DNA from: an uncultured Clostridia bacterium
GTDB lineage: Bacteria > Bacillota > Clostridia > Lachnospirales > Lachnospiraceae
Assembly: GCA_947385955.1 (NCBI GenBank)
Contig: CANDNA010000003.1
Coordinates: 1-64,000 of the forward strand
Length of the DNA: 64,000 bases
Direction: 5' to 3'
Shown here: positions 1,796 to 31,966 of the stretch, piece by piece
Layout of the letters: every line of letters begins with the position of its first letter
Position numbering within the stretch: position 1 is the first letter of the stretch
Program-made: the position numbers and the translations under genes
The notes under the pieces: model-generated
Seen by the model: the letters and a program-made list of their open reading frames with translations, nothing else
Databases searched by the model: none
Told to the model about the DNA's origin: nothing

Positions 1796-1863
1796 AATTT
1801 TTTCAAAAAGTTGTTGCATAACTATTGACAAAATGCACACCGGCACTGTGGGATGAAAAAAGA

Positions 1864-1892
1864 TTGACGTATCGTTTTAATAACGGTAAAAT
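1864..1892 (+). promoter_or_regulatory. serC-serA promoter
   Basis: TTGACG (1864-1869), a 17-base spacer and TAAAAT (1887-1892) make a good sigma-A promoter 45 bases before serC. It lies just past the transposase, so the serine operon keeps its own promoter beside the mobile DNA. Confidence 0.75.
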
Positions 1893-1936
1893 GAAATCTG
1901 TAGGTTTTGATTAGATTGATTTGAGGAGGAAGATTC

Positions 1937-4182: not shown

Positions 4183-4211
4183 TCGGAGAAATTTTCTATA
4201 GGGGAATAGAA

Positions 4212-4243
4212 CGGACACAGGGCGGGATGCCCTGTGTCTGTTT
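4212..4243 (+). terminator. Terminator between serA and the convergent minus-strand gene
   Basis: An almost perfect stem (4212-4223 with 4229-4240) and a short T run. In the minus direction the same hairpin is followed by a TTCTATTCCCC stretch, so it may serve both converging transcripts. A second, weaker hairpin lies at 4267-4297. Confidence 0.6.
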
Positions 4244-4306
4244 ATGCACACGGGCACGTGCAGAGAGCAGGGGAAGATGGCTTTTCCCTGCCTGGTTCAG
4301 ATAAAA

Positions 4307-4585
4307 TCAGTGGGATTTATAAATATCATCCTGTACCATATCAAAATCCAGATAGTCCTCCTTAAACTGTCTGGCTTTCTCGACGGAAAATTCGCTGGCC
4401 AGATCCATATATTCAATAAAAATTTCCTCCAGCGGGCGGCCCTGTTCAGAAGCAATGGTTTCCATAATGGGCCTTAGTTTTTCAAGCTGTACGGAAATGG
4501 GGGTTTTCTGAGGATCAATATCTGCCATTTCCTGTTCGGCATATCGGTTGATACGGTTTAACATGGTTTCCTGTTCTTTTGTCAT
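4307..4585 (-). CDS. Small conserved-looking acidic protein of unknown function
   Basis: A 92-residue protein beginning MTKEQETMLNRIN and ending DDIYKSH. It is acidic, helical, cysteine-free and has no signal or membrane segment. The start at 4585 is preceded by AGGAA at a sensible distance. A longer reading from a TTG at 4705 is unlikely because that TTG is itself the -35 box of a near-perfect promoter. It converges on serA and diverges from the DUF1015 gene. I do not recognise the family; composition and the strong promoter argue it is real. Confidence 0.7.
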   Translation of the reverse strand: MTKEQETMLNRINRYAEQEMADIDPQKTPISVQLEKLRPIMETIASEQGRPLEEIFIEYMDLASEFSVEKARQFKEDYLDFDMVQDDIYKSH

Positions 4586-4676
4586 TTTCTGTTCCTGCCT
4601 TTCTGAATGAATATATTGTGCAGGCTTTGCAGCCGGCCCTGCCTTTCTTGCTGTTACTGGATGAGAACTGTAATTC

Positions 4677-4705
4677 ATCATAGCACCATTCATTTTTTCT
4701 GTCAA
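4677..4705 (-). promoter_or_regulatory. Near-consensus promoter for the small minus-strand gene
   Basis: On the minus strand TTGACA (4705-4700), a 17-base spacer and TATGAT (4682-4677). Transcription would start near 4670, leaving about 85 bases of leader before the start at 4585. Confidence 0.8.
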
Positions 4706-4712
4706 AAACGAA

Positions 4713-4741
4713 TTGTATTCATCCGGAGGATTTGATAAAAT
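4713..4741 (+). promoter_or_regulatory. Promoter for the DUF1015-glgB-mscS run
   Basis: TTGTAT (4713-4718), 17 bases, TAAAAT (4736-4741). Its -35 box starts only eight bases from the -35 box of the divergent promoter, so the two may compete or share a regulator. Confidence 0.6.
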
Positions 4742-4789
4742 AAACAGAAGAAAAGGATTGCGAACGAAAAAAGAATGAGAGGATCACAG

Positions 4790-6028
4790 ATGGCAGATGT
4801 CAGACCTTTTTGTGCGGTCCGGCCCAGAGAGGGGCTGGAAGATAAGATTGCCGCACTTCCTTATGATGTGTATAACCGGACAGAGGCACGGGAGGAAATT
4901 AAAAAAAGCCCTCTGTCTTTTCTGCGAATTGACCGGGCGGAAACGCAGTTTCCCGTGGATATGGATATGTATGATATCCGGGTCTATGAAAAAGCAAAAG
5001 CACTTTTGGATGAAATGATGGAACAGGGGCAGTTCATAGAGGAGGAAGCTCCCTGTTATTACATATATGAGCTGACAATGGACGGGCGGACGCAGACAGG
5101 TATCGTTGCCTGTGCCAGTGTGGATGATTATGAAAATCAGGTAATTAAGAAACATGAAAATACAAGAGCGGAGAAGGAGGAGGACCGTATTCATCATGTG
5201 GATGTGTGCAGTGCCCAGACCGGACCTATTTTTCTGGCGTATCGTTCCAGGCAAGAGATCAACGAGCGGACAGAAGCAGTAAAGCGGGAAAAACCTTTGT
5301 ATGATTTTATTTCTTCAGACGGTATCCGGCACCGGGTATGGAAGATTTCAGATTCGGAGAGCGTTCAGAGCATCCGGGAGAATTTCCGGCAGGTGGATTC
5401 TGTCTATATTGCAGACGGACATCACCGGTGTGCTTCGGCAGTTAAAGTAGCCAGGATGAGGCGAAAGGCCCATCCTGATTACAGCGGCCGGGAGGAATTT
5501 AATACATTTCTGTCAGTGCTGTTTCCGGATGACCAGTTGATGATTATGGCTTATAACCGGGTGGTAAAGGATTTGAATGGCAACAGCGCAGAAGCATTTC
5601 TGGAAAAGGTTTCCGGGCGGTTTTGGGTGGAAAAGTCAGACGGCGCCGCATATCCTGACCGCAAAGGCCGGATTGCCATGTATCTTGCCCGTCACTGGTA
5701 TATGTTGACTGCACCGGTCAGCGATCAGGAGGATGACCCGGTGGGACAACTGGATGTGTCGATTCTGCAAAGAGAGCTTTTGACACCGGTTCTCGGTATC
5801 GGTGATCTGAGGACGGATACCAGGATTGATTTTGTAGGAGGCATCCGGGGACTGGCAGAATTGGAACGGAGGGTGGAAGAGGACTGCAGTGTGGCATTTG
5901 CCATGTATCCCACTTCCATATCAGAATTGTTTGCCGTATCGGATGCCGGGCTGCTGATGCCGCCCAAGTCCACCTGGTTTGAGCCAAAGCTCCGGAGCGG
6001 ACTTTTTATACATCGGATTGAGCCGTAG
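4790..6028 (+). CDS. DUF1015 family protein, possibly linked to serine/phosphoserine metabolism
   Basis: A 412-residue soluble protein. The start at 4790 is preferred over an ATG at 4775 because GAGAGG lies seven bases before it; the N-terminus then reads MADVRPFCAVRP, typical of DUF1015. The family hallmark is IADGHHR (D209 to R213), which resembles the DGHHR-type signature of ParB/sulfiredoxin-like nucleotide-binding enzymes. DUF1015 genes are commonly found beside serA and serC in Clostridia and Thermotogae, as here. No activity can be read from the sequence. A role as the missing phosphoserine-processing enzyme or in serine phosphorylation is inference from context and the motif only. Confidence 0.85.
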   Translation: MADVRPFCAVRPREGLEDKIAALPYDVYNRTEAREEIKKSPLSFLRIDRAETQFPVDMDMYDIRVYEKAKALLDEMMEQGQFIEEEAPCYYIYELTMDGRTQTGIVACASVDDYENQVIKKHENTRAEKEEDRIHHVDVCSAQTGPIFLAYRSRQEINERTEAVKREKPLYDFISSDGIRHRVWKISDSESVQSIRENFRQVDSVYIADGHHRCASAVKVARMRRKAHPDYSGREEFNTFLSVLFPDDQLMIMAYNRVVKDLNGNSAEAFLEKVSGRFWVEKSDGAAYPDRKGRIAMYLARHWYMLTAPVSDQEDDPVGQLDVSILQRELLTPVLGIGDLRTDTRIDFVGGIRGLAELERRVEEDCSVAFAMYPTSISELFAVSDAGLLMPPKSTWFEPKLRSGLFIHRIEP

Positions 6029-6096
6029 ATGCAGGGGATAAAACACCGGCGGGCTGCCTGCCATAACAAGCAATGCATGAGGGAGGAAAAGAAACC

Positions 6097-8466
6097 ATGA
6101 ATGACAAACTGTATAAATTAATGAACTGGCGGGATATTGAAGAGATTGTGTATTCGGAATGTGACGACCCGCATAAACTGTTAGGAGCGCACAGAGTGGG
6201 CAGCAAGCTGCTGATTCAGGCGTTTTTTCCGGATGCCAATTCCGTTACCATCAGGAGTGCCGACGGCAGAACGGTGTATCCGATGGAATGTGCGGACAGT
6301 GCAGGGTTTTATGCTGCTCTGGTTCCGGAAAAGGTTTCCTTTGCCTATGATTATCTTGTAAATGACGGAAAAAAGGAAGAGATCAGGAAAGAAGTATATT
6401 GCTATGATCCCATTATTACCAAAAAGGATACCGAAAAGTTTCATGCAGGGATACATTATACCATTTATCAGGTATTGGGTGCACATACAATGACCGTAAA
6501 CGGTGTGTCCGGCACACACTTTGCAGTCTGGGCTCCGGGGGCCATGCGGGTCAGCGTGGTGGGAGACTTCAATCAATGGGACGGACGTACCCATCAGATG
6601 CGCAGGCTCTGGGATTCCGGTATTTTTGAGCTGTTTCTGCCGGATGTGGGCAGCGGGGTGAATTATAAGTTTGAGATTAAGGTAAAAGGAGGTCTTACTT
6701 ACTTAAAGGCAGATCCTTATGCGTTCCGCGCCGAGCTTCGCCCGGGGACCGCTTCTGTGACAGCGGATATTTCCGGTTTTGCCTGGGAAGATGACAAATG
6801 GATGGAGATGCGCAGGAAAAAACAGGATAAGGATGCACCCATCAGCATCTATGAGCTGTACCTGGGTTCTTTTAAGCGTGCAGAGCAAAGTCAGGAACAG
6901 GATGAGGATACAGATACAGAGGAGCTTGCTTATCTGAATTACCGGGAACTGGCGCCGGAGATTATCTCTTATGTGAAAAGGATGGGATATACACATATTG
7001 AACTGATGCCGATTATGGAGCATCCCTTTGACGCTTCCTGGGGATACCAGACCATTGGCTATTATGCGCCCACAGCCAGATATGGGACACCGGAGGATTT
7101 CATGTACTTTATGAATGAGATGCATAAAGCACAGATTGGTGTGATTCTGGACTGGGTTCCGGCTCATTTTCCGCGGGATACGTATGGCCTTTCCAATTTT
7201 GACGGAACCTGTCTGTATGAGCATCAGGATCCGAGACAGGGAGCACATCCTGACTGGGGGACATTGATTTACAATTACGGCAGGCCGGAAGTTTCCAATT
7301 ACCTGATTGCCAATGCGTTGTTCTGGATTGAACAGTACCATGCAGACGGCATTCGTATTGACGCGGTGGCATCCATGCTCTATCTGGACTATGGAAAACG
7401 GGACGGCCAGTGGGTTGCCAATATGTACGGCGGGAATGAAAACCTGGAGGCAATGGAATTTTTAAAACATCTCAATTCCATGATTGAGAAAAGAGGAAAC
7501 GGCGCGGTGAGCATTGCGGAAGAATCCACCGCCTGGCCGAAGGTAACAGGTGATCTGAAAGAGGGCGGCCTGGGATTTTCCTACAAATGGAATATGGGAT
7601 GGATGAACGATTATCTGGAATATATCAAATATGATCCCTATTTCCGTTCCCACCATCACGGAGAACTGACCTTCAGTATGATTTATGCCTACAGCGAAAA
7701 GTTTATGCTGGAATTTTCTCATGATGAGGTGGTACACGGCAAGGGTTCTCTGCTGGGCAAGATGCCCGGTGAGCGGAAGGATAAATTTGCAAACCTGCGT
7801 CTGACACTGGCCCATATGATGATGCATCCGGGCAAAAAACTGTTGTTTATGGGGCAGGATATCGGAGAATTTGACGAATGGAATGAAGAACGGGAAGTGG
7901 AATGGGATCTGTTACAGTATGAGGAGCATCAGGGGATCAATCAGTTGATGCAGGATCTGAACCATTTCTACCAGGCCCATCCGGCACTGTATGAACTGGA
8001 TACGGAAAGCGGCGGGTTTGAATGGATCAACAATATTTCCGCAGATGAAAGTATGCTGGTATTTCTGCGTAAGGGCAGGAAAGAAGAGGAAGTGCTTCTG
8101 ATTGTGGAAAACTTTGCCAATGCCATGTGGGATCCGCATAAGATCGGAGTGCCGTTTGCCGGTAAATACAAAGAGATTTTTAATACGGACGCTGAGATAT
8201 ACGGCGGAAGCGGCCAGACCAATCCCCGGATGAAAACGGCCAAACTGAGCGAATGTGATGACCGTGAGTATTCTATCATGGTACGGTCGGCGCCTCTGTC
8301 TGTACAGGTCTTTTCCTGCATTCCGGAAAAAGTCTCCGGAACTGAAAAAACCTCAACAAAACAGAGTAAAACCAAAGCCGCAGGAAGAAAAAAAACAACA
8401 AAGCAGAGTACTGCAAAAAATGATAAGCCTGCCGGAAGGCAGAGCCGTACAAAAGCTGTAAAATAA
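6097..8466 (+). CDS. glgB: 1,4-alpha-glucan branching enzyme
   Basis: Forms alpha-1,6 branches in glycogen. The protein has 789 residues from the ATG at 6097, chosen because GGGAGG lies ten bases before it; the ATG at 6073 contains that site. Order: N-terminal CBM48-type domains (to about 240), GH13 catalytic barrel and C-terminal beta domain. The GH13 residues are D422 (IRIDAVAS), E475 or E476 (AEEST) and D543 (SHDEVVHGK). The family usually has 620-730 residues. Here a lysine-, threonine- and glutamine-rich tail of about 40 residues is added. No other glycogen gene lies in the window. It follows DUF1015 by 68 bases and probably shares its transcript. Confidence 0.96.
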   Translation: MNDKLYKLMNWRDIEEIVYSECDDPHKLLGAHRVGSKLLIQAFFPDANSVTIRSADGRTVYPMECADSAGFYAALVPEKVSFAYDYLVNDGKKEEIRKEVYCYDPIITKKDTEKFHAGIHYTIYQVLGAHTMTVNGVSGTHFAVWAPGAMRVSVVGDFNQWDGRTHQMRRLWDSGIFELFLPDVGSGVNYKFEIKVKGGLTYLKADPYAFRAELRPGTASVTADISGFAWEDDKWMEMRRKKQDKDAPISIYELYLGSFKRAEQSQEQDEDTDTEELAYLNYRELAPEIISYVKRMGYTHIELMPIMEHPFDASWGYQTIGYYAPTARYGTPEDFMYFMNEMHKAQIGVILDWVPAHFPRDTYGLSNFDGTCLYEHQDPRQGAHPDWGTLIYNYGRPEVSNYLIANALFWIEQYHADGIRIDAVASMLYLDYGKRDGQWVANMYGGNENLEAMEFLKHLNSMIEKRGNGAVSIAEESTAWPKVTGDLKEGGLGFSYKWNMGWMNDYLEYIKYDPYFRSHHHGELTFSMIYAYSEKFMLEFSHDEVVHGKGSLLGKMPGERKDKFANLRLTLAHMMMHPGKKLLFMGQDIGEFDEWNEEREVEWDLLQYEEHQGINQLMQDLNHFYQAHPALYELDTESGGFEWINNISADESMLVFLRKGRKEEEVLLIVENFANAMWDPHKIGVPFAGKYKEIFNTDAEIYGGSGQTNPRMKTAKLSECDDREYSIMVRSAPLSVQVFSCIPEKVSGTEKTSTKQSKTKAAGRKKTTKQSTAKNDKPAGRQSRTKAVK

Positions 8467-8505
8467 CAGAGAATCAAGTGGATTTTTGAACGGGCGGGTG
8501 ACAGG

Positions 8506-9384
8506 ATGAAATGGCTGTTGGAACAGGGACTTGATTTGGAAATGACAAAGGAGGATATCGGTTTGATTGAGCAGTTTTTTCAGGAATTGCCGGAGAAGGC
8601 ACTGGGGCTGGGGGTTCGGGTATTGCTGGCAATCGTAGTTCTTTTTCTTGGACTGCAGACGATCCGGCTGCTGCGCAGGCTGGTGGAAAAATCCCTGGCC
8701 AGGACCAATGTGGACCGGGGTGTGGCACAGTTTCTGGATTCTCTGATTAAAATTGGCCTGACTTCTCTGCTTTTACTGATGATTGCCATCAGTTTCGGGC
8801 TGGATGCGGCCAGCGTTATGGCGATGCTGGGTTCGGTGGGCGTGGCGTTTGCGCTGGCTATGCAGGGCAGCCTTTCCAACTGTGCCGGGGGTGTGTTAAT
8901 TCTGCTTCAGAAACCTTTTACCATAGGGGATTATATTATAGAAGGCAGCAAGGGGCAGGAAGGAACCGTGATTGAGATACAGCTTTTTTATACAAAGCTG
9001 CGGACGGCGGACGATGTGATTATCACATTGCCAAACGGCTCTCTTGCCAATCACAACATTACCAATTATACCACATTGGAAACACGCCGGATGGATGTGA
9101 CGATAGGGATTTCTTATGACGCCGATTTAAAACTGGCAAAGGAAGTGCTGCTTGGCGTATTGGAGCGGGAAGAGCGGGTATTGCAGAATCTGGATAAGAA
9201 GGTTTTTGTAAAAGATCTGGCTGACAGCGCCGTGCTTTTAAATGTCCGCTGCTTTTTCCTCAACGAAACCTATTGGGACGGAAGAGCGGCAGTACTGGAA
9301 GGATGCAAACTGGCGCTGGACGAAAACGGAATTGCCATTCCCTATCCTCAGTTGGATGTGCATATGAGTGCAGAAAATTCATAG
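8506..9384 (+). CDS. mscS: Small-conductance mechanosensitive channel, MscS family
   Basis: Membrane channel that opens under tension and releases solutes after osmotic downshock. The protein has 292 residues, close to E. coli MscS. Two hydrophobic helices (about 33-52 and 80-100) precede the pore helix with the Gly/Ala pattern MLGSVGVAFALAMQGSLSN, then the beta domain (KPFTIGDYI, ITLPNGSLANHNITNYT) and the C-terminal vestibule. The start is preceded by GACAGG. It lies 39 bases after glgB and is probably the last gene of that transcript. Confidence 0.93.
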   Translation: MKWLLEQGLDLEMTKEDIGLIEQFFQELPEKALGLGVRVLLAIVVLFLGLQTIRLLRRLVEKSLARTNVDRGVAQFLDSLIKIGLTSLLLLMIAISFGLDAASVMAMLGSVGVAFALAMQGSLSNCAGGVLILLQKPFTIGDYIIEGSKGQEGTVIEIQLFYTKLRTADDVIITLPNGSLANHNITNYTTLETRRMDVTIGISYDADLKLAKEVLLGVLEREERVLQNLDKKVFVKDLADSAVLLNVRCFFLNETYWDGRAAVLEGCKLALDENGIAIPYPQLDVHMSAENS

Positions 9385-9432
9385 ATAAGAATTTTCCTGC
9401 ATGAATCGGGCAGGGAAGGTTACTTCCCCTGT

Positions 9433-9476
9433 GCAAAAAAAACCGGATGTTTTCCAAAAGGAAACATCCGGTTTTC
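9433..9476 (-). terminator. Terminator of the tRNA-Thr transcript
   Basis: A strong hairpin (9441-9455 pairing with 9460-9472). On the minus strand it is followed by eight T, so it terminates the tRNA gene. It may also stop read-through from mscS, although the plus-strand T run is short. Confidence 0.85.
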
Positions 9477-9549
9477 AGCCGAAAAAGGGACTCGAACCCT
9501 CGACCCCTTCATTACGAGTGAAGTGCTCTACCGACTGAGCTATTTCGGC
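9477..9549 (-). tRNA. tRNA-Thr (anticodon CGT)
   Basis: Minus-strand cloverleaf of 73 bases. The acceptor stem is GCCGAAA with TTTCGGC, the D arm GCTC/GAGC, the anticodon stem CTTCA/TGAAG with loop CTCGTAA (anticodon CGT, reading ACG), and the T loop TTCGAGT. The 3' CCA is not encoded and must be added by the CCA enzyme. It is a single tRNA unit with its own promoter and terminator. Confidence 0.96.
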
Positions 9550-9569
9550 CTGGTCCGCTGACGTATGTT

Positions 9570-9598
9570 ATTATAAGGGGTATCGGAAAAATTTGCAA
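9570..9598 (-). promoter_or_regulatory. Promoter of tRNA-Thr
   Basis: On the minus strand TTGCAA (9598-9593), 17 bases, TATAAT (9575-9570). The start point falls about 15 bases before the tRNA. Confidence 0.8.
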
Positions 9599-9618
9599 GT
9601 GTTTTTTTCATGGTCATA

Positions 9619-9648
9619 TGGACAGTGTAAAAAGAGTATGTGTATAAT
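9619..9648 (+). promoter_or_regulatory. Promoter of the CAP-domain gene
   Basis: TGGACA (9619-9624), 18 bases, TATAAT (9643-9648). It rules out the upstream in-frame start at 9640, which lies within the -10 region. Confidence 0.7.
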
Positions 9649-9684
9649 AAAAGGGAAAGAACTTGTACGAAGGAGGAGTTGACG

Positions 9685-10296
9685 ATGAGGAGAAACATGA
9701 TGTTGCTGGCCACAGCTTTTCTGATCCTTTTGGGCTGCAGTATGACTGTGTGTGCCCAGCCGGTTACGCTGGAGGATGGTACTGTGTTTGATGCCCAGTA
9801 CTATGCCCAGAACAATCCGGATGTAGCGGCGATACTGGGAATGGATGAAAATGCACTTTATCAGCATTATATCCTGTATGGAAAGGCAGAAGGCAGAATC
9901 GGGGCAGCCCCGGATGTCAGCAGTATGGACTATAACCACCAGGTGATGGAGCTGTGTAATGAGGAACGCAGAGCGGCAGGGACAAGGGATCTTAGTTATG
10001 ACGATGCGCTGGCGCAGGTGGCACAGGTAAGGGCAAAGGAACTGCCGACAGCATTTTCCCATACCCGCCCTGACGGTTCCAGTGCACTGGATATGGTACC
10101 TTTCGGAAATGGGATTCATTATAAAGGGGAAAATATAGCCAGTGGATTCGCTACTCCGGAGAAGGTGATGAACGGCTGGATGAACAGTGAAGGCCACCGG
10201 AAAAACATTATGAATGGAAATTACAGCAGGATCGGCGTGGGATATTACGTGGATGATACAGGCTATCCTTACTGGGTACAGATTTTCGCAGGATAG
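9685..10296 (+). CDS. Secreted CAP (SCP/PR-1-like) domain protein
   Basis: A 203-residue exported protein. AAGGAGG precedes the ATG at 9685. Residues 1-25 are a signal peptide, with LLGC as a poor lipobox or a cut after VCA. A short module follows (FDAQYYAQNNPDVAAILG... YGKAEGR), a repeat type I recognise from surface proteins of gut Clostridia. The C-terminal two thirds is a CAP domain with the usual histidine and glutamate sites in FSHTRPDGSS, GENIA and NSEGHRKNIMN, and the ending YWVQIFAG. Substrates of bacterial CAP proteins are mostly unknown; a cell-surface or envelope role is likely. Confidence 0.9.
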   Translation: MRRNMMLLATAFLILLGCSMTVCAQPVTLEDGTVFDAQYYAQNNPDVAAILGMDENALYQHYILYGKAEGRIGAAPDVSSMDYNHQVMELCNEERRAAGTRDLSYDDALAQVAQVRAKELPTAFSHTRPDGSSALDMVPFGNGIHYKGENIASGFATPEKVMNGWMNSEGHRKNIMNGNYSRIGVGYYVDDTGYPYWVQIFAG

Positions 10297-10382
10297 ACCG
10301 ATTGGTCTGCCCGTTCTGCAGATGTGGCAGGGCTGGGGGAAATACTGTAGTATCCGGCAGATACAGGATGTAAAAAAAGTGA

Positions 10383-10417
10383 AAGGACAGGATTTTTCAG
10401 GATTCTGTCCTTTTTTT
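10383..10417 (+). terminator. Terminator after the CAP-domain gene
   Basis: AAGGACAG (10383-10390) pairs with CTGTCCTT (10405-10412), followed by a run of T to 10417. Confidence 0.8.
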
Positions 10418-10453
10418 GTCTGATAAATTCAGAAAGTCGGAAAACACTTTCAT

Positions 10454-22385: not shown

Positions 22386-23770
22386 TGGATGTGTTGAAGA
22401 AAGTACCGGTGCGCGAGCAGGAGCCTTGTGTGCGTGCCCATAATTTTGAAGAAGTATGTCTGGGTTATAACAGGGAAGAAGCGATGGAGGAGGCGGCACG
22501 GTGCATTAACTGCAAAAATGCCCAGTGCATCAAAGGATGTCCGGTAGCCATTGATATTCCCGGATTTATCGAAAAAATCAAAGAGGGAAATATGGAAGAG
22601 GCTTATCAGATCATCAGCCATTCCAGCGCTCTGCCCGCCGTATGCGGACGGGTATGCCCCCAGGAGAGCCAGTGTGAAGGAAAATGTATCCGTGGTATTA
22701 AGGGAGAACCCATTTCCATCGGAAAACTGGAGCGTTTTGCCGCAGACTGGGCAGGTGAGCAGGGAATCAGACCGGAAGGCGCAAAAGAAAAGAAAGACAA
22801 AAAGGTGGCTGTGATCGGTTCCGGGCCTGCCGGGCTGACCTGTGCAGGAGATCTGGCAAGGATGGGATATGATGTGACCATTTTTGAAGCGCTGCATGAA
22901 GCAGGGGGCGTGCTGGTCTATGGGATTCCGGAGTTTCGTCTGCCCAAAGAAAAAGTGGTGCGCAGAGAAATTGAAAATGTAAAGGCGCTGGGCGTTAAGA
23001 TAGAAACCGATGTGGTTATCGGCAAATCCACTACCATAGATGAACTGATGGAAGAGGAAGGCTATGATGCAGTGTTTATCGGTTCCGGCGCAGGGCTTCC
23101 GAAATTTATGGGGATTCCGGGAGAACAGGCCAACGGTGTGTTCTCGGCCAATGAATATCTGACCAGAAGCAATCTGATGAAGTCCTTTGAGGAAGATGCC
23201 AGGACACCGATTATGCATGGCAAAAAAGTGGCCGTGGTAGGCGGCGGCAATGTGGCGATGGATGCGGCCAGGACAGCGTTGCGTCTGGGCAGTGAAGTGC
23301 ATATTGTATACAGGAGAAGCGAAGAGGAGCTTCCGGCCAGAGTGGAAGAAGTGCATCATGCCAAAGAGGAGGGGATCATTTTTGACCTGCTGACCAATCC
23401 TGTGGAGATTCTTTCCGATGAAAACGGCTGGGTAAGCGGGATAAAGTGTATCCGGATGGAGCTGGGAGAGCCGGATGAGTCTGGCAGGAGAAGGCCGGTA
23501 GCAGTCCCCGGTTCTGAATTTGTGATTGATGCGGACATGGTCATCATGTCTCTGGGAACATCCCCCAATCCGCTGATTTCCTCCACGACACAGGGGCTGG
23601 AAGTAAATAGATGGAAGTGTATCGTCGCAGATGAGGAGCATGGCAAAACGACAAAAGAGGGTGTTTATGCCGGCGGCGATGCCGTAACCGGTGCGGCAAC
23701 GGTAATTCTGGCTATGGGAGCCGGTAAGGCAGGCGCAAAGGGAATTGATGAGTATCTGAGCGGAAAATAA
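22385..23770 (+). CDS. nfnB: NADPH-binding flavoprotein subunit (NfnB / GltA type)
   Basis: A 461-residue partner of NfnA. The N-terminal ferredoxin-like domain has cysteine sets RCINCKNAQCIKGCP and AVCGRVCPQESQCEGKCI for two 4Fe-4S clusters. Two dinucleotide folds follow: VAVIGSGPAGLTCAGDLA for FAD and VAVVGGGNVAMDAARTALRLG for NADPH. Databases often call such genes glutamate synthase small subunit, but no large GltB-like subunit is present and the NfnA gene directly upstream argues for the Nfn complex, which balances NADH, NADPH and ferredoxin in the cytoplasm of anaerobes. Confidence 0.93.
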   Translation: MDVLKKVPVREQEPCVRAHNFEEVCLGYNREEAMEEAARCINCKNAQCIKGCPVAIDIPGFIEKIKEGNMEEAYQIISHSSALPAVCGRVCPQESQCEGKCIRGIKGEPISIGKLERFAADWAGEQGIRPEGAKEKKDKKVAVIGSGPAGLTCAGDLARMGYDVTIFEALHEAGGVLVYGIPEFRLPKEKVVRREIENVKALGVKIETDVVIGKSTTIDELMEEEGYDAVFIGSGAGLPKFMGIPGEQANGVFSANEYLTRSNLMKSFEEDARTPIMHGKKVAVVGGGNVAMDAARTALRLGSEVHIVYRRSEEELPARVEEVHHAKEEGIIFDLLTNPVEILSDENGWVSGIKCIRMELGEPDESGRRRPVAVPGSEFVIDADMVIMSLGTSPNPLISSTTQGLEVNRWKCIVADEEHGKTTKEGVYAGGDAVTGAATVILAMGAGKAGAKGIDEYLSGK

Positions 23771-23805
23771 ATCCGATTTCCTGAAAGGACATAGGAGGAG
23801 CGGTC

Positions 23806-24477
23806 ATGGCATGGTGTCCGAAGTGTAAAAATGAATATGTGGAAGGCATTACCATATGTGCCGACTGCGGCAGCGAACTGGTGGAAACGCTGCCCCCGGA
23901 AACAGACGGGGCAGATGTGACCGGCGTGATGGAAGAGCCGGATGAGAACGTGTGCCTTTCTGGTACGGAGGATGCGGAGGAGGAAGAAACCAAAGCGATG
24001 CCGCTCAGGGGCGCATACAAAGACAATGCCCAAAAGGCGGCGGATTGCAAGAATTCCGGATATACGCTGGTGGGCGTGGGTGCACTGGGGCTTTTGGCAG
24101 TGGGCCTGTCAGCGGCAGGGGTATTGCCGGTCCGTCTGGGCGGCAGCGCAGCGGTTTTAAGCCATGGTGTGATGGGCGCCATGTTTCTGATCTTTTTCAT
24201 CATAGGGGTCCGCTCCATGCAGTCTGCAGGAAAGTACCGGAAAGAGGCTGTGACAGAGAGTAATTTAAAGGAACAGATCCTGCACTGGTGCAGGGACAAT
24301 CTGACTGCTGAAAAAATAGAGGAACCGCTGGTTCTGGAGGGACTTTCGGAAGAGGAAAAGTATTTCAGGCGGACGGAACGGATCAGGGCGTTGATTTCTC
24401 ACAGTTTTATCAATATTGAAGAGGGATTTCTGGACAATCTGATTGATGAGTTTTATCCGGAGCTTTTTAAGGAATAG
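23806..24477 (+). CDS. Zinc-ribbon membrane protein of unknown function
   Basis: A 223-residue protein with an N-terminal zinc ribbon (MAWCPKCKNEYVEGITICADCGSELV), an acidic stretch, two membrane helices (about 85-110 and 122-145) and a soluble helical C-terminus ending FYPELFKE. TAGGAGG precedes the ATG. It shares the ribbon-then-membrane plan with the protein at 19999, on the other side of nfnAB, but not the rest. Function unknown. Confidence 0.8.
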   Translation: MAWCPKCKNEYVEGITICADCGSELVETLPPETDGADVTGVMEEPDENVCLSGTEDAEEEETKAMPLRGAYKDNAQKAADCKNSGYTLVGVGALGLLAVGLSAAGVLPVRLGGSAAVLSHGVMGAMFLIFFIIGVRSMQSAGKYRKEAVTESNLKEQILHWCRDNLTAEKIEEPLVLEGLSEEEKYFRRTERIRALISHSFINIEEGFLDNLIDEFYPELFKE

Positions 24478-24507
24478 AAAAAAGTCGGGCTGTGATTGAA
24501 AAAGTCG

Positions 24508-24546
24508 GGGCTTTTGTACGGGAAATGAGTACGAAAGCCCTGGCTT
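24508..24546 (+). terminator. Terminator-like hairpin before the CHAT gene
   Basis: A 12-bp stem (24508-24519 with 24529-24540, one G-U pair) followed by a modest T run. Upstream AAAAAGTCGGG occurs twice 20 bases apart (near 24479 and 24499). No convincing promoter was found between this hairpin and 24662. Confidence 0.6.
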
Positions 24547-24661
24547 TTCTGGTATTTCCCGCAGGCAGGTGGTATCATTGAAATCATAGATAATACAGAA
24601 AAAAAGGTATGGAATGTTTGCCGGATGGGTAGTTGTCTGGCCGGGAAGGGAAGTGTGCGGG

Positions 24662-27600
24662 ATGGAGCTGCAAATTCATCATATGGGGGAGCGGGACGGC
24701 AGGCCTGTATTTACAGTGATCCGGAGCAGGGATGGAAAGAGGACAGAAGAAGTCTGCCTGCCGGAACCGGAAGCCTTTCCGCTAAAGGAGCATTCGTCAC
24801 GAAAATTTCTTCCGGAACTTCGCTGGTATCTGGAGGAATACCTGCAGGCGCCCTTTGGGGCTTATCTGCACAGGGCGGCCTGTGTGTCGGAAACGATGCG
24901 GGACTGGGGAAGGGCTGTTTTTGATACTCTGTTTGCAGGGCGGGGAAGAGACTGGTATCAGGAGGCAAAACGGGCAGGGCTGGAACAGCTGCGGTTGAAG
25001 ATTGTCAGTGATTCGGCGGCTGTGATGTCCTGGCCCTGGGAAGCGATATACAGTGCAGAGGACGGCTTTCTGGCGCTGCGCTGTCATATGGAACGGCAGT
25101 TGTCTGAGATTGGTGATCCGCCCTCCTTATCTTCCGGCCTGTCTGAGGATGCGTTTCATATTTTATATATTCTGGCCAGGCCCTATGGGGAGGAGGATGT
25201 GAGTTATCATTCTCTGGCAGGCAGGTTTGTGGAGGACATCCGGGGAAACGGGCTGTGTGCTGTAGTGGATGTGCTGCGTCCGCCCACCTTTGACCGGCTT
25301 CGGCAGGTGCTGTATGAGAAACGGGGATATTATCATATTGTACACTTTGACGGACATGGCGGGTATGGGGAGGAGGAAAGTGGGAGACGGCAGTATCTGT
25401 ACGGAGGACCGGAGGGGCAGCTTATGTTTGAAACAGAGGAAGGGAAACCGGACGGGATCAGTGCGGCGCTTCTGGCACAGCTTCTGGCAGAATTTCAGAT
25501 TCCTGTCATGGTAATGAATGCCTGTCAGTCCGGTATGATAGACGAACAGGCACAGGATCCCTTTGCCAGTGTGGCGGCTGGCTTGTTAAAAGCAGGTATC
25601 CGCAGTGTAGTCGCTATGGGATACAGTCTTTATGTAAGCGGCGCCAGAGAATTTGTTCCTGCATTTTATAACCGTCTTTTCGCTACAGGCCGGATATCGG
25701 AGGCAGTGCGGGCAGGACGGACTCAGATGCTGAGGCAGCAGGAACGAAGCTGTATTGTGGGAAAAATGCCGCTGCAGGACTGGATTGTGCCGGTGCTGTA
25801 TCAACAGGGCGGGGAAGAAGAACTGCTGCTGCCTTTGCAGGCCTGCAGAAAAGAGGAAACAGGAGAATATCCCCAGCGCTTGCCGGAATCCGTGCAGGAT
25901 ACAGGGGAGTATGGCTTTATCGGACGGGGACAATACATTCAAAAGCTGGAGCGGGCCATGCTGCACCAGAAACAGGCAGCCCTTTTGGTACATGGACAGG
26001 CCGGTGTGGGGAAAACCACATTGGCCGGCGGTTTTTTGCGCTGGCTGCAGGATACGGGCGGCCTTTGTGAACAGGTTTTCTGGTTTGATTTCCGGGAAAT
26101 CCATTCGGCGGAATCGGTGATCAACAGTCTGTTGACAGGAATGGGCGATTTTAACAGGACTGCGATGAGAATGGAAGAGAAACTTCCTTATTTGAGTGAT
26201 TTGATGCGCAGAAAACCTTATATTGTGGTATGGGATAATTTCGAATCTGCCTCCGGTATTGCGGGAACGGAGAGAGTCCCTTTGCTGGATCAGGATAACA
26301 GGGCAGTCCTGTTCGATCTGCTCAGGCGGCTCAGGGGCGGGAAAACCAAAATACTGATCACAAGCCGTACTCCGGAGCAATGGCTTTCCATACAGAACTG
26401 TTATCCGATTGCCTTATCCGGGTTTTCGGGAGAGGAGCTATGGGAGTACTGCAATGCTGTGGTACAGGACCTGGAGCTGACTCTGGATCGGAAGAATCCG
26501 ACTTACAGAAGGCTTCTGGACAGACTGGATGGCAATCCACTGGCAATCCGTGCCATTTTGCTGCGTCTGCAGAGCGTATCGGCAGAGCAGCTTCTGGCCG
26601 AACTGGAAACAGCGTTTGCGGGTGCAGAGGGGGATGAAAGTACCCGCCGCCTGCAGGCTGCCTGTGCGGTGTTCGGGGAGCGACTGATGGAACGGTTTCT
26701 GCCCATTTTCCAGTTGACCGGCCTGCATGAACGGTATGTGGATACGGATTTGCTGAGAAGTATGCTGAATGTGGCCGGTATCGATGCGGCAGAAGAAATT
26801 GCCGACTGTTTCCGGATTCTGGAGGAAGCCGGTTTTTGCAGTGATTGGGGACAGAGCGTATATCAGATGCACCCGGCCCTGCGGGGATATCTGCTGAACC
26901 GGGCGCCTGCACCGGAAATACTCCAGAGAGTGTTTGCAGAGGGAATGGGAGAACTGGCGTATTATATGGCAGGAGAGCCATTGAGTGTGACAGGTAATAC
27001 GTATGAGATACATTTGTCCAATTTTTATGCTGCCAGAAGGCTGGCGGAACTATGGGATATCAAAAGGGTTGTCCTTGCATTGACCAAAAGTCTGGCTTAT
27101 TTCGCATATGAGAGAAGACAGTTTGCAGAGGCATCGGCGTTATATCTGTCCCTTGTGGAAAAATCAAAACTGTATGAAGATGAGAATATGCTGTCGGTTG
27201 CCTTTCATCAGTTGGGAATACTTGCCCAGGAACGAAGAGATTTGGGAGCCGCAGAGGAATGGTATCGAAAATCTTTGGAACTCAGCCAAAAGCAGGGAAA
27301 TGAGTACAGGATTGCAGCTTCCTATCATCAGCTTGGGAGGATTGCAGGAGAACAATGGGAGTTTGCGGCGGCAAAGGAGTGGTATCAAAAATCATTGGAA
27401 ATCAATGAAAGAAAAGGGAATGAACAGGATGCTGTCAGGACGTATTATCAACTGGGCAGAATCGCCGAAGAACAGCGGGACTTTGCGGCGGCGGAGGGCT
27501 GGTTTAGAAAATCACTGGAAGTGAGCGAGAAACAGAAAAATGAGGAAATGGCTGCTATCGTGTATCATGGATTGGGAAGTATCGCACAGGAGCAGAAAGA

Positions 27601-28417
27601 TTTTGAAGGGGCAGAGAAGTGGTATCAAAAATCTCTGAAGATCAGGAAAAAACAGGGAGATGAGTATGAAATGGCGTATACCTGTCATCAGTTGGGAATG
27701 CTTGCCCAGGAACGGAAGGATTTTACAGCGGCAGAGAAGTGGTATCAAAAGTCTCTGGAGATCAAGGAAAGACGGGGGAATGAGCGTGAAACGAACAGCA
27801 CCTATCATCAGTTGGGCATACTTGCCCAGACGCAGGGGAATTTTACAGAAGCAGAGGAATGGTACCAAAAATCATTGGAAATCAGTGAAAGACAGGGAAA
27901 TAAATATGGAGCTGCGCTTACCTGTCATCAGTTAGGCATACTTGCCCAGGCGCAGGGGAATTTTACAGAAGCAGAGGAATGGTACCGGAAATCATTGAAG
28001 ATTAAGGAAGAACAGGGAAATGAATATGGAATTGCCGGTACCTGCTACCAGCTTGGCCTGCTTTTCCGGCAACAGGAAGATTTTGCCGCAGCGGAAAAGT
28101 GGTGTGTAAAATGTCTGGAGATTGAGGAGAAGTTTGGAGATGAGGACGGGGCTGCCAGTACCTGCTATCAGCTTGGTCTGCTTTTTGAGGAACAGCAGGA
28201 TTTTTCAGCCGCAGCGGACGCTTATCTGAAAGCAATGCCCATATGGGAACAGGCGGATGACAGTGAGGATTTTATGGACCTGATCTGCAGTTACAGCCGG
28301 ATGCTGCGCAGCGCTCCGGCAGAGGAAGCGGTTTCTTTGCAAAAGCGGCTGGAAGAGCAGGCATCATCAAAAGCCGTTATGTTGGTGAGAGAGAATCTGG
28401 AGGAGGAAAAGAGATGA
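24662..28417 (+). CDS. CHAT protease / STAND ATPase / TPR-repeat protein
   Basis: A 1251-residue, three-part signalling protein. Residues about 1-400 are a CHAT (caspase-like) protease with H232 in VHFDGHGGY and C288 in MNACQSG. Residues about 425-760 are an NB-ARC-like STAND ATPase: Walker A GQAGVGKTT (445-453), Walker B VVWDNFE with D525, TSR sensor in ILITSRT, GNPLAI and an MHD-like QMHPAL. Residues 847-1206 are nine 40-residue TPRs. The start at 24662 follows GGGAAGGGAAG and gives the usual CHAT opening; 24614 is possible. Such plans fit a sensor in which ligand binding by TPRs drives ATP-dependent assembly and protease activation. Its stop overlaps the 140-residue partner gene. The trigger and substrate are not known. 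Confidence 0.93.
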   Translation: MELQIHHMGERDGRPVFTVIRSRDGKRTEEVCLPEPEAFPLKEHSSRKFLPELRWYLEEYLQAPFGAYLHRAACVSETMRDWGRAVFDTLFAGRGRDWYQEAKRAGLEQLRLKIVSDSAAVMSWPWEAIYSAEDGFLALRCHMERQLSEIGDPPSLSSGLSEDAFHILYILARPYGEEDVSYHSLAGRFVEDIRGNGLCAVVDVLRPPTFDRLRQVLYEKRGYYHIVHFDGHGGYGEEESGRRQYLYGGPEGQLMFETEEGKPDGISAALLAQLLAEFQIPVMVMNACQSGMIDEQAQDPFASVAAGLLKAGIRSVVAMGYSLYVSGAREFVPAFYNRLFATGRISEAVRAGRTQMLRQQERSCIVGKMPLQDWIVPVLYQQGGEEELLLPLQACRKEETGEYPQRLPESVQDTGEYGFIGRGQYIQKLERAMLHQKQAALLVHGQAGVGKTTLAGGFLRWLQDTGGLCEQVFWFDFREIHSAESVINSLLTGMGDFNRTAMRMEEKLPYLSDLMRRKPYIVVWDNFESASGIAGTERVPLLDQDNRAVLFDLLRRLRGGKTKILITSRTPEQWLSIQNCYPIALSGFSGEELWEYCNAVVQDLELTLDRKNPTYRRLLDRLDGNPLAIRAILLRLQSVSAEQLLAELETAFAGAEGDESTRRLQAACAVFGERLMERFLPIFQLTGLHERYVDTDLLRSMLNVAGIDAAEEIADCFRILEEAGFCSDWGQSVYQMHPALRGYLLNRAPAPEILQRVFAEGMGELAYYMAGEPLSVTGNTYEIHLSNFYAARRLAELWDIKRVVLALTKSLAYFAYERRQFAEASALYLSLVEKSKLYEDENMLSVAFHQLGILAQERRDLGAAEEWYRKSLELSQKQGNEYRIAASYHQLGRIAGEQWEFAAAKEWYQKSLEINERKGNEQDAVRTYYQLGRIAEEQRDFAAAEGWFRKSLEVSEKQKNEEMAAIVYHGLGSIAQEQKDFEGAEKWYQKSLKIRKKQGDEYEMAYTCHQLGMLAQERKDFTAAEKWYQKSLEIKERRGNERETNSTYHQLGILAQTQGNFTEAEEWYQKSLEISERQGNKYGAALTCHQLGILAQAQGNFTEAEEWYRKSLKIKEEQGNEYGIAGTCYQLGLLFRQQEDFAAAEKWCVKCLEIEEKFGDEDGAASTCYQLGLLFEEQQDFSAAADAYLKAMPIWEQADDSEDFMDLICSYSRMLRSAPAEEAVSLQKRLEEQASSKAVMLVRENLEEEKR
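27200..28279 (+). repeat. Nine tandem 120-bp TPR-coding repeats
   Basis: Nine in-frame units of exactly 120 bases with no gap, each coding a TPR of the form xxYHQLGxLAQExxDFxxAEEWYxKSLEI. Units six (27800-27919) and seven (27920-28039) are almost identical in DNA, which suggests recent duplication. The array can grow or shrink by recombination without a frameshift. Confidence 0.92.
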
Positions 28418-28836
28418 ATTTACGTTACAGTTCCCTGCGGGTCAAAAAGAATGTACTGCGGGCATTGGCACAGCAGGATCCGGAATTTTGGGTGTTTGAG
28501 GAGAAATGGCGGGATGTGCTGCCGGAAGCAGGATGTCCGGAAGAATTGGCCGAGGCAGTATTGGAGCTGGCCATACAGGACCCGGATGCGGCCGCTATGG
28601 CGGATCACTATACGGAATGTGAGCAGGCGTCCGGGACCTATGCCATTCCCGGGCTGGCAGAGATGGGAGTTTTAATAGCTGCTCTGTTTTTACTGCGTAC
28701 CCATATAAAAATACATAAAAATACGGAGGGAAAATGGGAATTTCTGTTAGAGCATAAAGAAATGGCAGAAGAACCTCTGGAAAAGATCGCGGGGATGCTG
28801 ACAAAGCTCTTTTCTTCACCGCCGGGAGAATCATAA
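28414..28836 (+). CDS. Small partner protein of the CHAT-STAND gene
   Basis: A 140-residue protein whose ATG overlaps the CHAT gene stop by four bases (ATGA), so the two are co-translated. The first 70 residues are helical and acidic. Residues 76-95 (AIPGLAEMGVLIAALFLLRT) are hydrophobic and could cross or insert into a membrane. Then comes a basic beta-like stretch (HIKIHKNTEGKWEF) and a helical tail. I recognise no named family. It could be the substrate, the effector or an inhibitor of the protease; coupling makes one of these likely but the sequence does not say which. Confidence 0.8.
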   Translation: MNLRYSSLRVKKNVLRALAQQDPEFWVFEEKWRDVLPEAGCPEELAEAVLELAIQDPDAAAMADHYTECEQASGTYAIPGLAEMGVLIAALFLLRTHIKIHKNTEGKWEFLLEHKEMAEEPLEKIAGMLTKLFSSPPGES

Positions 28837-28862
28837 AAGAGACATAAGGAAGGGTCAGAGAA

Positions 28863-29342
28863 ATGCGGATTACAGTTGTTTGTGTGGGAAAAATCAAGGA
28901 AGCGTTTTACCGGGCTGCAGTGGAGGAATACAGAAAACGCCTTTCCGGGTATTGTAAAACAGATGTGGTGGAAGTAGCGGACGAGATGACAAAGGAGGGG
29001 GCCAGTGCGGCGCAGGAAGAGCAAATCCGGAAAAAAGAGGGGGAACGCATCCTTTCGAAAATCAGGCCGGACGCTTATGTGATCACACTGGAGATCGCAG
29101 GTAAAAAGATGGATTCGGCGAGATTTTCCGATATGCTGCAAAAGGCCGGTGTGGAGGGAAAAAGCCATATCCAGTTTGTCATTGGCGGTTCCCTGGGACT
29201 CCATGCTTCGGTCAGCCAGAGAGCAGACTTAAAGATCAGTTTTTCGGATATGACCTTTCCCCATCAGTTGATGCGGGTCATTTTGTTTGAACAGATTTAC
29301 AGAGGATATCGGATTGCCAATGGGCAGCCATATCATAAGTGA
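28863..29342 (+). CDS. rlmH: 23S rRNA (pseudouridine-1915-N3)-methyltransferase
   Basis: SPOUT-class methyltransferase that modifies helix 69 of 23S rRNA using SAM. The protein has 159 residues, the normal length. It starts MRITVVCVGKIKE and ends in the knot region FVIGGSLGLHASVSQRADLKISFSDMTFPHQLMRVILFEQIYR (in part) and GQPYHK, all family hallmarks. It is a housekeeping gene, so the CHAT locus is inserted between conserved genes rather than within an obvious defence island. Confidence 0.97.
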   Translation: MRITVVCVGKIKEAFYRAAVEEYRKRLSGYCKTDVVEVADEMTKEGASAAQEEQIRKKEGERILSKIRPDAYVITLEIAGKKMDSARFSDMLQKAGVEGKSHIQFVIGGSLGLHASVSQRADLKISFSDMTFPHQLMRVILFEQIYRGYRIANGQPYHK

Positions 29343-29896
29343 AGGAGAAAATGGGATGGCTGCAAAAAAGTTATTTTTTTTTGGCAGTAAAGGAAATGTC
29401 CCTTTCCATCGTGTTGCGGCGAAATGAGGTGAGAGAGGGATACGTGGCTGAAGAAGTTGCCGCGTCTGCCCGGAGAATGAGGGCATTGCAGCCGGTTTCA
29501 AATCCCTACTGTCCCCCCATTTCCCCTGTAAGATAATCTGCTGCACATCATTTCCGCTCCCCGTCGTGAATGAATATGCCCTCTGTGGAGGCTGGTTCTT
29601 CTAAAAGATTAAGAGGATGAAACATAAGGAGGAAGGCATTCCGCTTATTGTAATTTGCCGGAATGCTGTGTATAATCGAAGTAAGAAATAACAGAAGTAT
29701 GAAACGCACAGTGTTTTCCTGTTTGGATTTCCATGTGAGATGAAACAGTAAAGATATTTTTGAATGCAGATGGTACAATGTTATTTAGTAAAAGTGAAAG
29801 ACAGTCAGGAAATGTCATGTACGATATGGTGGTGGCGGATTATCTGTGCGAAAATCAGCATAGGTAATATTTTCAGGAGAGACAGTAGGTATACCA
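29343..29896 (+). other. 554-base intergenic region with one promoter
   Basis: No gene I can support. An open frame at 29339-29536 (overlapping the rlmH stop) has no convincing homology and contains an eight-T run; I treat it as doubtful. The region carries a strong promoter with an inverted repeat at 29636-29676 and then about 220 bases of leader before the chemoreceptor, with only very short open frames. Confidence 0.5.
29636..29676 (+). promoter_or_regulatory. Promoter with overlapping inverted repeat (possible operator)
   Basis: TTGTAA (29648-29653), 17 bases, TATAAT (29671-29676). The perfect 8-base arms GCATTCCG (29636-29643) and CGGAATGC (29659-29666) sit symmetrically around the -35 box, as expected for a repressor or activator site. 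It is the only good promoter before the chemoreceptor gene. Confidence 0.6.
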
Positions 29897-31966
29897 ATGA
29901 AAAAAACAAGTATTTTCAGGCAGCTTCTATTGCCTATGATATTAATTGTATGTGTATTGGCGTTATGTTTAACAGGAATTGTTGCAGTTGTTTTTATAAA
30001 ATCTTATGAAAGTCAGATATATGCCAGGAGCCAGGAGAAGTCACAACTGGTATCCGGTGAGATTGCCATGTTTTTGGACGGCGCCTATGGGATTACGGAA
30101 GAATTATCTGTAAATCCCAGTATTCTTACTATGGAAACCAATGCACAGACACCGATTCTTGAAAATTGCGTCAGGCGAAATCCTTTTTTGGAACTTCTTT
30201 ACATACAGGGAAAAGATGGCATGCAGACAGGAAGGTCTTCCGGAGAACTGGCGGACCGTTCTACCAGGTGGTGGTTTCAACAGACGGTGGATGAGCAGAA
30301 ATCTTTTATCTCAAAATCTTATTATTCTGTGAATACCGGGATGCCCTGTGCTTCCATTTTTTTCCCCATGTATCAGGAGAATACGTTTATTGGGATTTTT
30401 GCAGCGGATTTGAAACTGGATTATTTACAGAGCCTGATAGAAGAATTTTCCGACGCGGAACATGGAGAGTATTCTTTTGTTATTGATGGGGAGGGTGTTG
30501 TGGTGGCTCATCCGGACAGCACCCAAATAGAGGAACTTTATAATTACAAACAGATGACCAAAACGGTATCCGACAAGGATTCTACAGGCCAGCCGGTGGT
30601 TGACGCGGAAGGAAATATTGTAACAAAAGAGCAGAATATAATAGTTTCTGACGACTACAGAAAAATAATTGAGGAGGTTATGGCAGGAAAAACGGGAAGC
30701 GGTAAAATCACGAATGAGGGGGAAGATTATATTGTAAGCTACGCTTCGATTCCGCTTAAGGGGGAGTCCGATACATGGTCAGTGATAACTCTTTACAGAG
30801 AAAAGTCGGCAATGACTCCGGTGTACCGGATGATTGCCATTGCAGCAACAGTGGCTGTTTTTATGATTGCGGTCGCAATTTTAGTGATTGCATGGTTGGC
30901 GCACAGGCTGACCAAGCCAATTGTGTCCATTACGGAGCTGGTTCAAAATGCCTCTGATGGTGATTTTACCGTGCAGGCAGATGAGGGCGGCAGGAATGAA
31001 ATCGGTGTACTTTCAAAATGTTTTAACAAGATGACCGGGAAAATATCGGTAATCCTGAGAAAAAACGCTGTGATTGCCGGAGAAGTTGTAGAAAATGCCG
31101 GGTATTTAAGACAGATTGAAAAAGACATGGATAAAACCCGTCAGGCAGTTCGGGAAATATTGGACGGCTCTGAGGCACAGGATGCGGATGTAAAGGAAAT
31201 CCTCACGCAGGAGGAGTTGTTGGGGGTGAAGTTCGGCCAATTGCAGGAAAAAAGCAGACTTCTTCTGGAGAATGCACAGGACACGATTGCTTCCAGTGAG
31301 AAAGGAATGGAAGGTGCTGCAGATCTTCAGAAGCAGAATGAGGAGGCTTCCGAGGGAATGGCGGATGCCTATGGCAAGGTTATGGCATTGGAAGAGCAAT
31401 CACGAAAGATTTCAGGAATTTTAAATACCATAGATAATATCACTTCCCAAACCAGGTTGCTTGCCCTGAATGCGTCCATAGAGGCTGCCCGTGCAGGAGA
31501 ACATGGCAGAGGTTTTTCCGTAGTGGCGGAATCCATAGGAAAACTTGCTATGGATTCCTCCACGGCAACTGGCGATATAGAAAAAATTATTACAGAATTG
31601 TGTATGGAAATTTCCAACGTGGTTGCAAATATGGAATCCATCCGCGCAGGCGTGAATGGGCAGACGCAGGCAGTAAAGCAGGTTCAGGAGACATTTGCGG
31701 ATTTCCATATGCTGGCAGAGCGGACAAAAGAATCTGTCAGCAGTACGGATGAACTTGTGGAATCAATGCATCAGTGTGACCGCATGGTAGTGGGCGCAGT
31801 GGACAGGATACGGCATATTTCCGCAAATACGGCAGGACTTACGCAGCAGGTGGCGGAATCCATAGAGAAACAGTTAAAAGGAGCTGCAAAAGTGACCGTT
31901 GGCATTGAAAATTTGTCAAAGGTTTCCCGGGAAATGAAACAGGAGATGACAAAGTTTACATTATAA
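29897..31966 (+). CDS. Methyl-accepting chemotaxis protein
   Basis: A 689-residue transmembrane receptor. The first helix is at about 10-35, a dCache-type sensor domain follows outside the cell (about 40-300, with YSVNTGMPCASIFFPM and YSFVIDGEGVVVAHPD), the second helix is at about 310-335, then a HAMP domain and the signalling coiled coil. The tip reads IDNITSQTRLLALNASIEAARAGE, matching the conserved hairpin but with Arg where Asn is usual in QTNLLALNA. No che or flagellar genes are nearby, so it would feed a pathway encoded elsewhere. The ligand is unknown. Confidence 0.95.
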   Translation: MKKTSIFRQLLLPMILIVCVLALCLTGIVAVVFIKSYESQIYARSQEKSQLVSGEIAMFLDGAYGITEELSVNPSILTMETNAQTPILENCVRRNPFLELLYIQGKDGMQTGRSSGELADRSTRWWFQQTVDEQKSFISKSYYSVNTGMPCASIFFPMYQENTFIGIFAADLKLDYLQSLIEEFSDAEHGEYSFVIDGEGVVVAHPDSTQIEELYNYKQMTKTVSDKDSTGQPVVDAEGNIVTKEQNIIVSDDYRKIIEEVMAGKTGSGKITNEGEDYIVSYASIPLKGESDTWSVITLYREKSAMTPVYRMIAIAATVAVFMIAVAILVIAWLAHRLTKPIVSITELVQNASDGDFTVQADEGGRNEIGVLSKCFNKMTGKISVILRKNAVIAGEVVENAGYLRQIEKDMDKTRQAVREILDGSEAQDADVKEILTQEELLGVKFGQLQEKSRLLLENAQDTIASSEKGMEGAADLQKQNEEASEGMADAYGKVMALEEQSRKISGILNTIDNITSQTRLLALNASIEAARAGEHGRGFSVVAESIGKLAMDSSTATGDIEKIITELCMEISNVVANMESIRAGVNGQTQAVKQVQETFADFHMLAERTKESVSSTDELVESMHQCDRMVVGAVDRIRHISANTAGLTQQVAESIEKQLKGAAKVTVGIENLSKVSREMKQEMTKFTL

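Follow-up and report, generated by a model that had tools for sequence, protein, structure and literature searches.

A CHAT-NB-ARC-TPR protein and its small helix-bearing neighbour most likely form a mobile two-gene defence or cell-death cassette

In the 64,000-nucleotide stretch of DNA from an uncultured Lachnospiraceae bacterium analysed here (the window), a gene for a CHAT protease joined to a STAND ATPase and TPRs overlaps the gene for a small partner protein. Judged by domain content and relatives, the two most likely constitute an NLR-like, mobile two-gene defence or cell-death cassette. The reading we prefer, at a probability of roughly 0.45, is that this cassette is horizontally mobile and that the partner would be the dedicated client-executioner of the CHAT protease. 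Sequence evidence speaks for a dedicated partner and fits a client as well as a docking or regulatory subunit. The features are as follows, in window coordinates.

24662..28417, + strand: gene for the CHAT protease, NB-ARC STAND ATPase and nine TPRs, 1251 aa
24968..25750, + strand: CHAT domain, PF12770 match, residues 103-363, dyad H232 (HFDGHG) and C288 (NACQS)
25943..26572, + strand: NB-ARC/STAND ATPase, residues 428-637, Walker A 445-452, D525, ITSR 566
27191..28273, + strand: nine 40-residue TPRs, about residues 844-1204
28414..28836, + strand: 140-aa partner gene, four-base ATGA overlap with the CHAT gene, small family without significant library match
28639..28758, + strand: conserved core of the partner, residues 76-115, hydrophobic helix plus predicted beta-hairpin (THIKI..GKWEFLLEH)
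24478..28862, no strand: segment missing at the site in nine same-genus genomes (empty site)

The start of the large gene was taken at 24662 because its closest relative begins with the same MELQIHH; an alternative in-frame ATG lies at 24614. Its product exceeds the curated Pfam cut-offs for CHAT (PF12770, 67.2 bits versus 24) and NB-ARC (PF00931, 36.3 bits versus 23.5), has TPR matches in its C-terminal part, and is the sole PF12770 match in its own genome. An intact His-Cys dyad, a complete set of STAND motifs and nine TPRs had been predicted from the DNA, and all are borne out: H232 and C288 are both kept in 22 of 22 alignment rows of relatives, Walker A reads GQAGVGKT from residue 445, D525 lies within VVWDN, ITSR begins at residue 566 and an MHD-like YQMHP at residue 734, and the nine repeats have a period of exactly 40 residues. 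With an N-terminal effector, an NB-ARC domain carrying Walker motifs and C-terminal repeats, the protein has a STAND/NLR-like layout. At the DNA level, TRF reports a 120-bp period across 27611-28044, in the TPR region. Protein identity among the TPRs averages 48% across the eight units compared and 52% across seven of them, and is 45% to the repeats of a relative on an Acidisarcina plasmid (see below); since the window repeats are barely closer to each other than to those of Acidisarcina, recent homogenisation is not strongly indicated. In a related gene on a phage-like contig (locus L067, 1332-4973, below), DNA similarity is 78% among seven TPRs and 60% between them and the window repeats, which hints that repeats turn over in the presumed sensor. 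The CHAT-STAND part has no match among solved structures at E 0.01. PADLOC returned three matches, two of them to TPR models and the third a weak one to SAVED_CHAT (23.2 bits), and no model of a specific known defence system.

The end of the large gene and the start of the partner gene overlap by four bases, as the original prediction had stated. That prediction also gave the 140-residue protein one hydrophobic helix; the helix is there, at a length too short to be securely called transmembrane. It consists of 11 consecutive uncharged residues preceded by E83, and the uncharged stretch is 11 residues in three family members and 19 in the Acidisarcina partner. The 19-residue Kyte-Doolittle means are 1.94 (window), 2.10 (L067), 1.17 (Methylobacter) and 1.65 (Acidisarcina). 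With a helix that is short, and weakly hydrophobic in Methylobacter, the term transmembrane is insecure; going by sequence, a membrane role of the partner is plausible, not secure, and the segment may instead be a soluble core helix. Conservation is concentrated around it: the window and L067 copies are identical at 32 of 40 positions in residues 76-115, compared with 18 of 75 in residues 1-75 and 7 of 20 in residues 116-135, and T96, H97, K99, W108 and E113, all in the core of helix and predicted hairpin, are invariant across the four members. A low-confidence model from the single sequence suggests a mostly helical protein with a helix-strand-strand-helix order; both structure models made are poor, with mean pLDDT of 50.7 (this one) and 52.2.

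No significant match to the partner was found in Pfam or PHROGs (four members searched), NCBIfam (two members) or PADLOC (the window's copy). Gasdermins were likewise not matched in Pfam, PHROGs, NCBIfam or PADLOC, which is informative only if these libraries model gasdermins. Against solved structures, the best hit of the partner profile had an unconvincing E of 0.18 and was rejected. Identity with EACC1 was also rejected, as the small gene gave no PF19953 match in a search extended to E 10 that covered its own genome, genome G797 and the Acidisarcina plasmid; 0 of 14 control genomes exceeded the cut-off in this search, which thus has no positive control. The sole weak PF19953 match lies outside the small gene, at 30809-30937 (12.1 bits versus a cut-off of 23.6). 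The small gene nevertheless has three homologues, and on these sequence comparisons it is real and more than a chance reading frame.

These homologues were first reached via carriers of the CHAT gene. A tblastn search of plasmids with the CHAT-STAND part gave 13 records, the best being pACPOL1 of Acidisarcina polymorpha (locus L005), 42% identical in this part. On this plasmid the gene is broken into two reading frames, one for CHAT and one for the TPRs, and a gene of 150 aa abuts the 3' end of the TPR frame with zero gap; its product is homologous to the window partner (30% identity over 80 residues, pairwise E 5e-7). A Methylobacter tundripaludum MAG has a CHAT-STAND gene, 47% identical and with one in-frame stop, on one contig, and a 138-aa partner homologue (32% over 104 residues, E 2e-17) at the start of a different contig; each of the two genes lies at a contig end, and the ends do not overlap. 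Finally, a profile-guided scan of IMG/VR yielded contig IMGVR_UViG_3300010163_001555 (L067), whose CHAT protein is 60% identical in the CHAT-STAND part and 54.9% identical over 1229 columns of the whole protein. Its CHAT-STAND-TPR gene (1308-4976) is overlapped at the 3' end by a small gene (4960-5373) for a 137-aa homologue, 42% identical to the window partner. Related CHAT genes are broken at L005 4974-8514 (split frame) and L004 2523-5414 (in-frame stop), and at the more distant L009, gene pieces at 4899-10424 have ORFs between them that were judged transposase-like by eye; it is as if such genes were frequently lost, or the breaks are assembly errors.

Direct searches with the small proteins added little. 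The window protein found only itself, chance matches or nothing in the collections plasmids, phages, genome_contigs and viral_contigs and in 150 family and 10 genus genomes; the Acidisarcina protein found itself and one chance match (E 0.2) in viral_contigs and plasmids; and the phage-contig protein gave no new homologue in plasmids and phages. The Methylobacter protein did recover that of Acidisarcina in plasmids. Searched against viral_contigs, partner profile A2 gave no new homologue and profile A5 only the IMG/VR contig already known. As a single sequence, the window CHAT-STAND part had no match in viral_contigs. Among phage records it had one distant CHAT match, and the L067 CHAT protein found only the same record. 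This is MT836801.1, an 8.7-kb 'Bacteriophage sp.' record from human faeces, with a distant CHAT domain (26.6% identity) at 1184-1993.

The original prediction proposed a recurrent pair, and named small-gene homologues living mostly apart from a CHAT gene as the outcome that would speak against it. The opposite is observed: each of the four carriers found for the small gene also has a gene of the CHAT clade, in the same record or elsewhere in its genome, and in three of them (the window, L067 and the Acidisarcina plasmid) the two genes are directly adjacent or overlapping, always with the CHAT gene 5' and the small gene 3'. In a tree of 24 CHAT-STAND proteins, from which L007 (a near copy of L006) and L042 (a cut gene) were left out, the proteins of the window, L067, L005, L004 and L043 form one clade with support of 100/100. 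A small-gene profile matched 1 of 321, 1 of 397 and 1 of 6 genomes; the genome matched was G797 in two of these searches and the window's own in the other, and the CHAT gene is present in both genomes. In G807, the genome of L043, the clade CHAT gene is present and no small gene was found; the CHAT contig ends inside the gene.

How far does the pairing extend? When 22 loci were searched with a profile of three partners, the sole match was L005; L043 is a clade member, and the ORFs of the 20 CHAT-STAND-TPR loci outside the clade gave no match, so that the coupling is observed within a single clade rather than across the CHAT-STAND-TPR architecture. Several of these 20 loci are near copies of one another, and L032, L033 and L036 have fewer than 300 bases after the CHAT stop. 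The absence of profile matches there, read with the same caveats, would suit a CHAT-STAND-TPR protein that acts alone, as its distant relatives seem to, the small gene being a passenger or having an unrelated role. We consider this improbable, given that the overlapping or abutting pair has been kept in the window, in a phage-like contig and on an acidobacterial plasmid, and that the partner core is strongly conserved. Separately, small ORFs with a hydrophobic helix follow the distant CHAT-STAND-TPR genes at L035 (6782-7213), L009 (10510-10917) and L008 (8219 onward), and two of them terminate in a G-[IL]-K-x-F-C-E motif. As kin of the partner they were rejected for want of a profile match; they have nothing significant in Pfam, and the alignment of L009 with L035 spans seven residues only. 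On plasmids typed as conjugative, L006 (Nostoc) and L007 (Tolypothrix) have CHAT-STAND-TPR genes near an annotated integrase, with no small ORF directly downstream.

The pair occupies a site that is empty in relatives. In nine of nine other genomes of the genus, the counterparts of 23806-24477 and of the RlmH-type gene at 28863-29342 are direct neighbours, at most about 75 bases apart as judged from tblastn ends, which makes the pair an insert of about 4.4 kb. The upstream neighbour encodes a protein with sub-threshold zinc-ribbon matches, and the downstream one a SPOUT (RlmH-type) methyltransferase with a homologue in 10 of 10 genus genomes, its own included. Genes further upstream (FTHFS, FolD and others, labelled by eye and not by family search) are in conserved order in the nine relatives; two of these had no FolD match, and a contig end truncates one region. 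Neither the CHAT gene nor the small gene has a match in the site regions of the nine relatives. The small protein was not found in any of the nine whole genomes, and a whole-genome search for the CHAT-STAND part covered two of them (G080 and G156). The CHAT-STAND part occurs in one of 397 family genomes (E 1e-10) and one of 398 phylum genomes (E 1e-8), in each case the genome analysed here. Comparison of 24441-24670 with 28761-28910 gave no direct repeats longer than 7 bases, a promoter scan gave nothing on the + strand of the gap at 24478-24661, and Rfam had no match within 23500-30500. By eye, an inverted repeat (GGGCTTTTGTAC / GTACGAAAGCCC) is seen at 24508-24540, between the upstream and CHAT genes and inside the insert; it is possibly a terminator. 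Lying between genes that abut in nine relatives, the pair could be missed by screens that need a defence-rich neighbourhood.

On the IMG/VR contig (L067/L069), the pair is flanked on one side by a recombinase fragment carrying a zinc ribbon and on the other by lysis and tail genes of the opposite strand, which have endolysin, holin, hemolysin-type, tail fibre and baseplate matches. A place beside such phage genes is a usual spot for prophage cargo. As the pair is near the end of the contig and beside the recombinase fragment, it could also be host flank just outside a prophage. Phages and their satellites are described as carrying hotspots of antiviral systems (PMC9122126). The occurrence of a relative in a phage-like contig beside lysis genes makes an anti-phage or cell-death device probable, and the immune role originally put forward fits both this copy and the insertion in the genus. 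A stress, developmental or signalling module is an unlikely alternative in our estimate: the CHAT name does include HetF, a developmental protein, and cyanobacteria account for 10 of the 13 plasmid records that carry a related gene, but a gene that is rare, inserted, and found on plasmids and a phage-like contig has the distribution of accessory conflict genes.

Drawing on the biology of STAND and NLR proteins, we propose that the TPRs would sense an invader product, upon which the NB-ARC domain would bind ATP and oligomerise and the CHAT protease would become active. In the least certain steps, the partner, as the dedicated client, would be cut in or near its variable N-terminal part, and the freed, conserved hydrophobic helix-hairpin might damage the membrane or otherwise halt growth, a gasdermin-like logic carried out by an unrelated protein. 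Counting against this reading as a whole is that two of the three other carriers are damaged, by the split gene in Acidisarcina and the in-frame stop in Methylobacter. Somewhat less probable than the client reading, and its closest competitor, is the same cassette with an uncleaved partner, a docking or regulatory subunit that would restrain the CHAT-STAND protein or hold it at the membrane while the protease cuts other proteins of the cell or phage. Conservation in the partner peaks in its helix and predicted hairpin with five invariant residues, as expected for an interface, and the gene overlap suggests linked production. EACC1-caspase systems, as described in PMC7159879, also pair a single-helix protein with a caspase; however, the partner lacks an EACC1 match, the gene order is opposite to that in EACC1 systems, and the helix is doubtful as a membrane anchor in Methylobacter.

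Among known systems, the client reading is closest in outline to fungal clusters. In Podospora anserina, a CHAT-TPR protease activates a gasdermin encoded in a two-gene cluster, and a subset of such clusters is of NLR type, according to PMC12881547. Shared with them is a CHAT protease with TPRs beside a small gene, which in the fungi is under protease control; the partner here differs in having 140 aa, in being mostly helical in the low-confidence model and in matching no gasdermin, the carriers are bacterial and phage-like, and its cleavage is our proposal. In type III-E CRISPR systems, the locus for Csx29 (TPR-CHAT) also encodes Csx30, which Csx29 cleaves (PMC10028731). The CHAT His-Cys dyad, the TPRs and a protein partner encoded nearby are common to both, whereas our protein has a STAND ATPase and a partner unmatched in the libraries used, and its two immediate flanking genes encode the zinc-ribbon-like and RlmH-type proteins, not Cas7-11. 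EACC1-caspase systems have STAND NTPases among their variable modules and combine a caspase-fold protease with a small protein in which one hydrophobic helix is flanked by alpha/beta elements (PMC7159879). The present family resembles them in pairing a small protein of one hydrophobic helix with such a protease; EACC1 has a single conserved TM helix with small residues at its centre, to which the helix here (19-residue means of 1.17 to 2.10 over four members) may or may not correspond. It departs from them in that the EACC1 gene is 5' and our partner gene 3', that the protease is of the CHAT-NB-ARC-TPR type, and that PF19953 is not matched. The order of effector, STAND ATPase and C-terminal repeat sensor is that of Avs/bNACHT proteins (PMC10907252); here the ATPase is an NB-ARC with a CHAT effector and a second gene, and there is no Avs among the three PADLOC matches. 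With Borvo, a phage-defence protein (PMC10952713), the CHAT domain is shared, and STAND, TPRs and partner are additional here; Borvo is absent from the three PADLOC matches, which is informative only if PADLOC-DB models it.

None of the domain types in the large protein is new, and CHAT and STAND-TPR modules are familiar from conflict systems. The partner family, the pairing and the presence in a phage-like contig are not recognised in Pfam, PADLOC, NCBIfam or PHROGs, nor in the literature searched, mostly without subscription journals. We tentatively raise, as a doubtful further step, that the 140-aa family may represent a novel type of executioner under protease control, with no relation to gasdermins, by which a phage-carried, NLR-type CHAT protease would kill infected cells or arrest them. 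The two proteins would then amount to a bacterial 'inflammasome plus client' whose effector is a helix-hairpin. The finding provides a small two-gene protease system of NLR type that lends itself to testing, with a partner that has no significant match in the libraries searched, and raises the question of whether CHAT receptors in bacteria have clients beyond gasdermins and Csx30.
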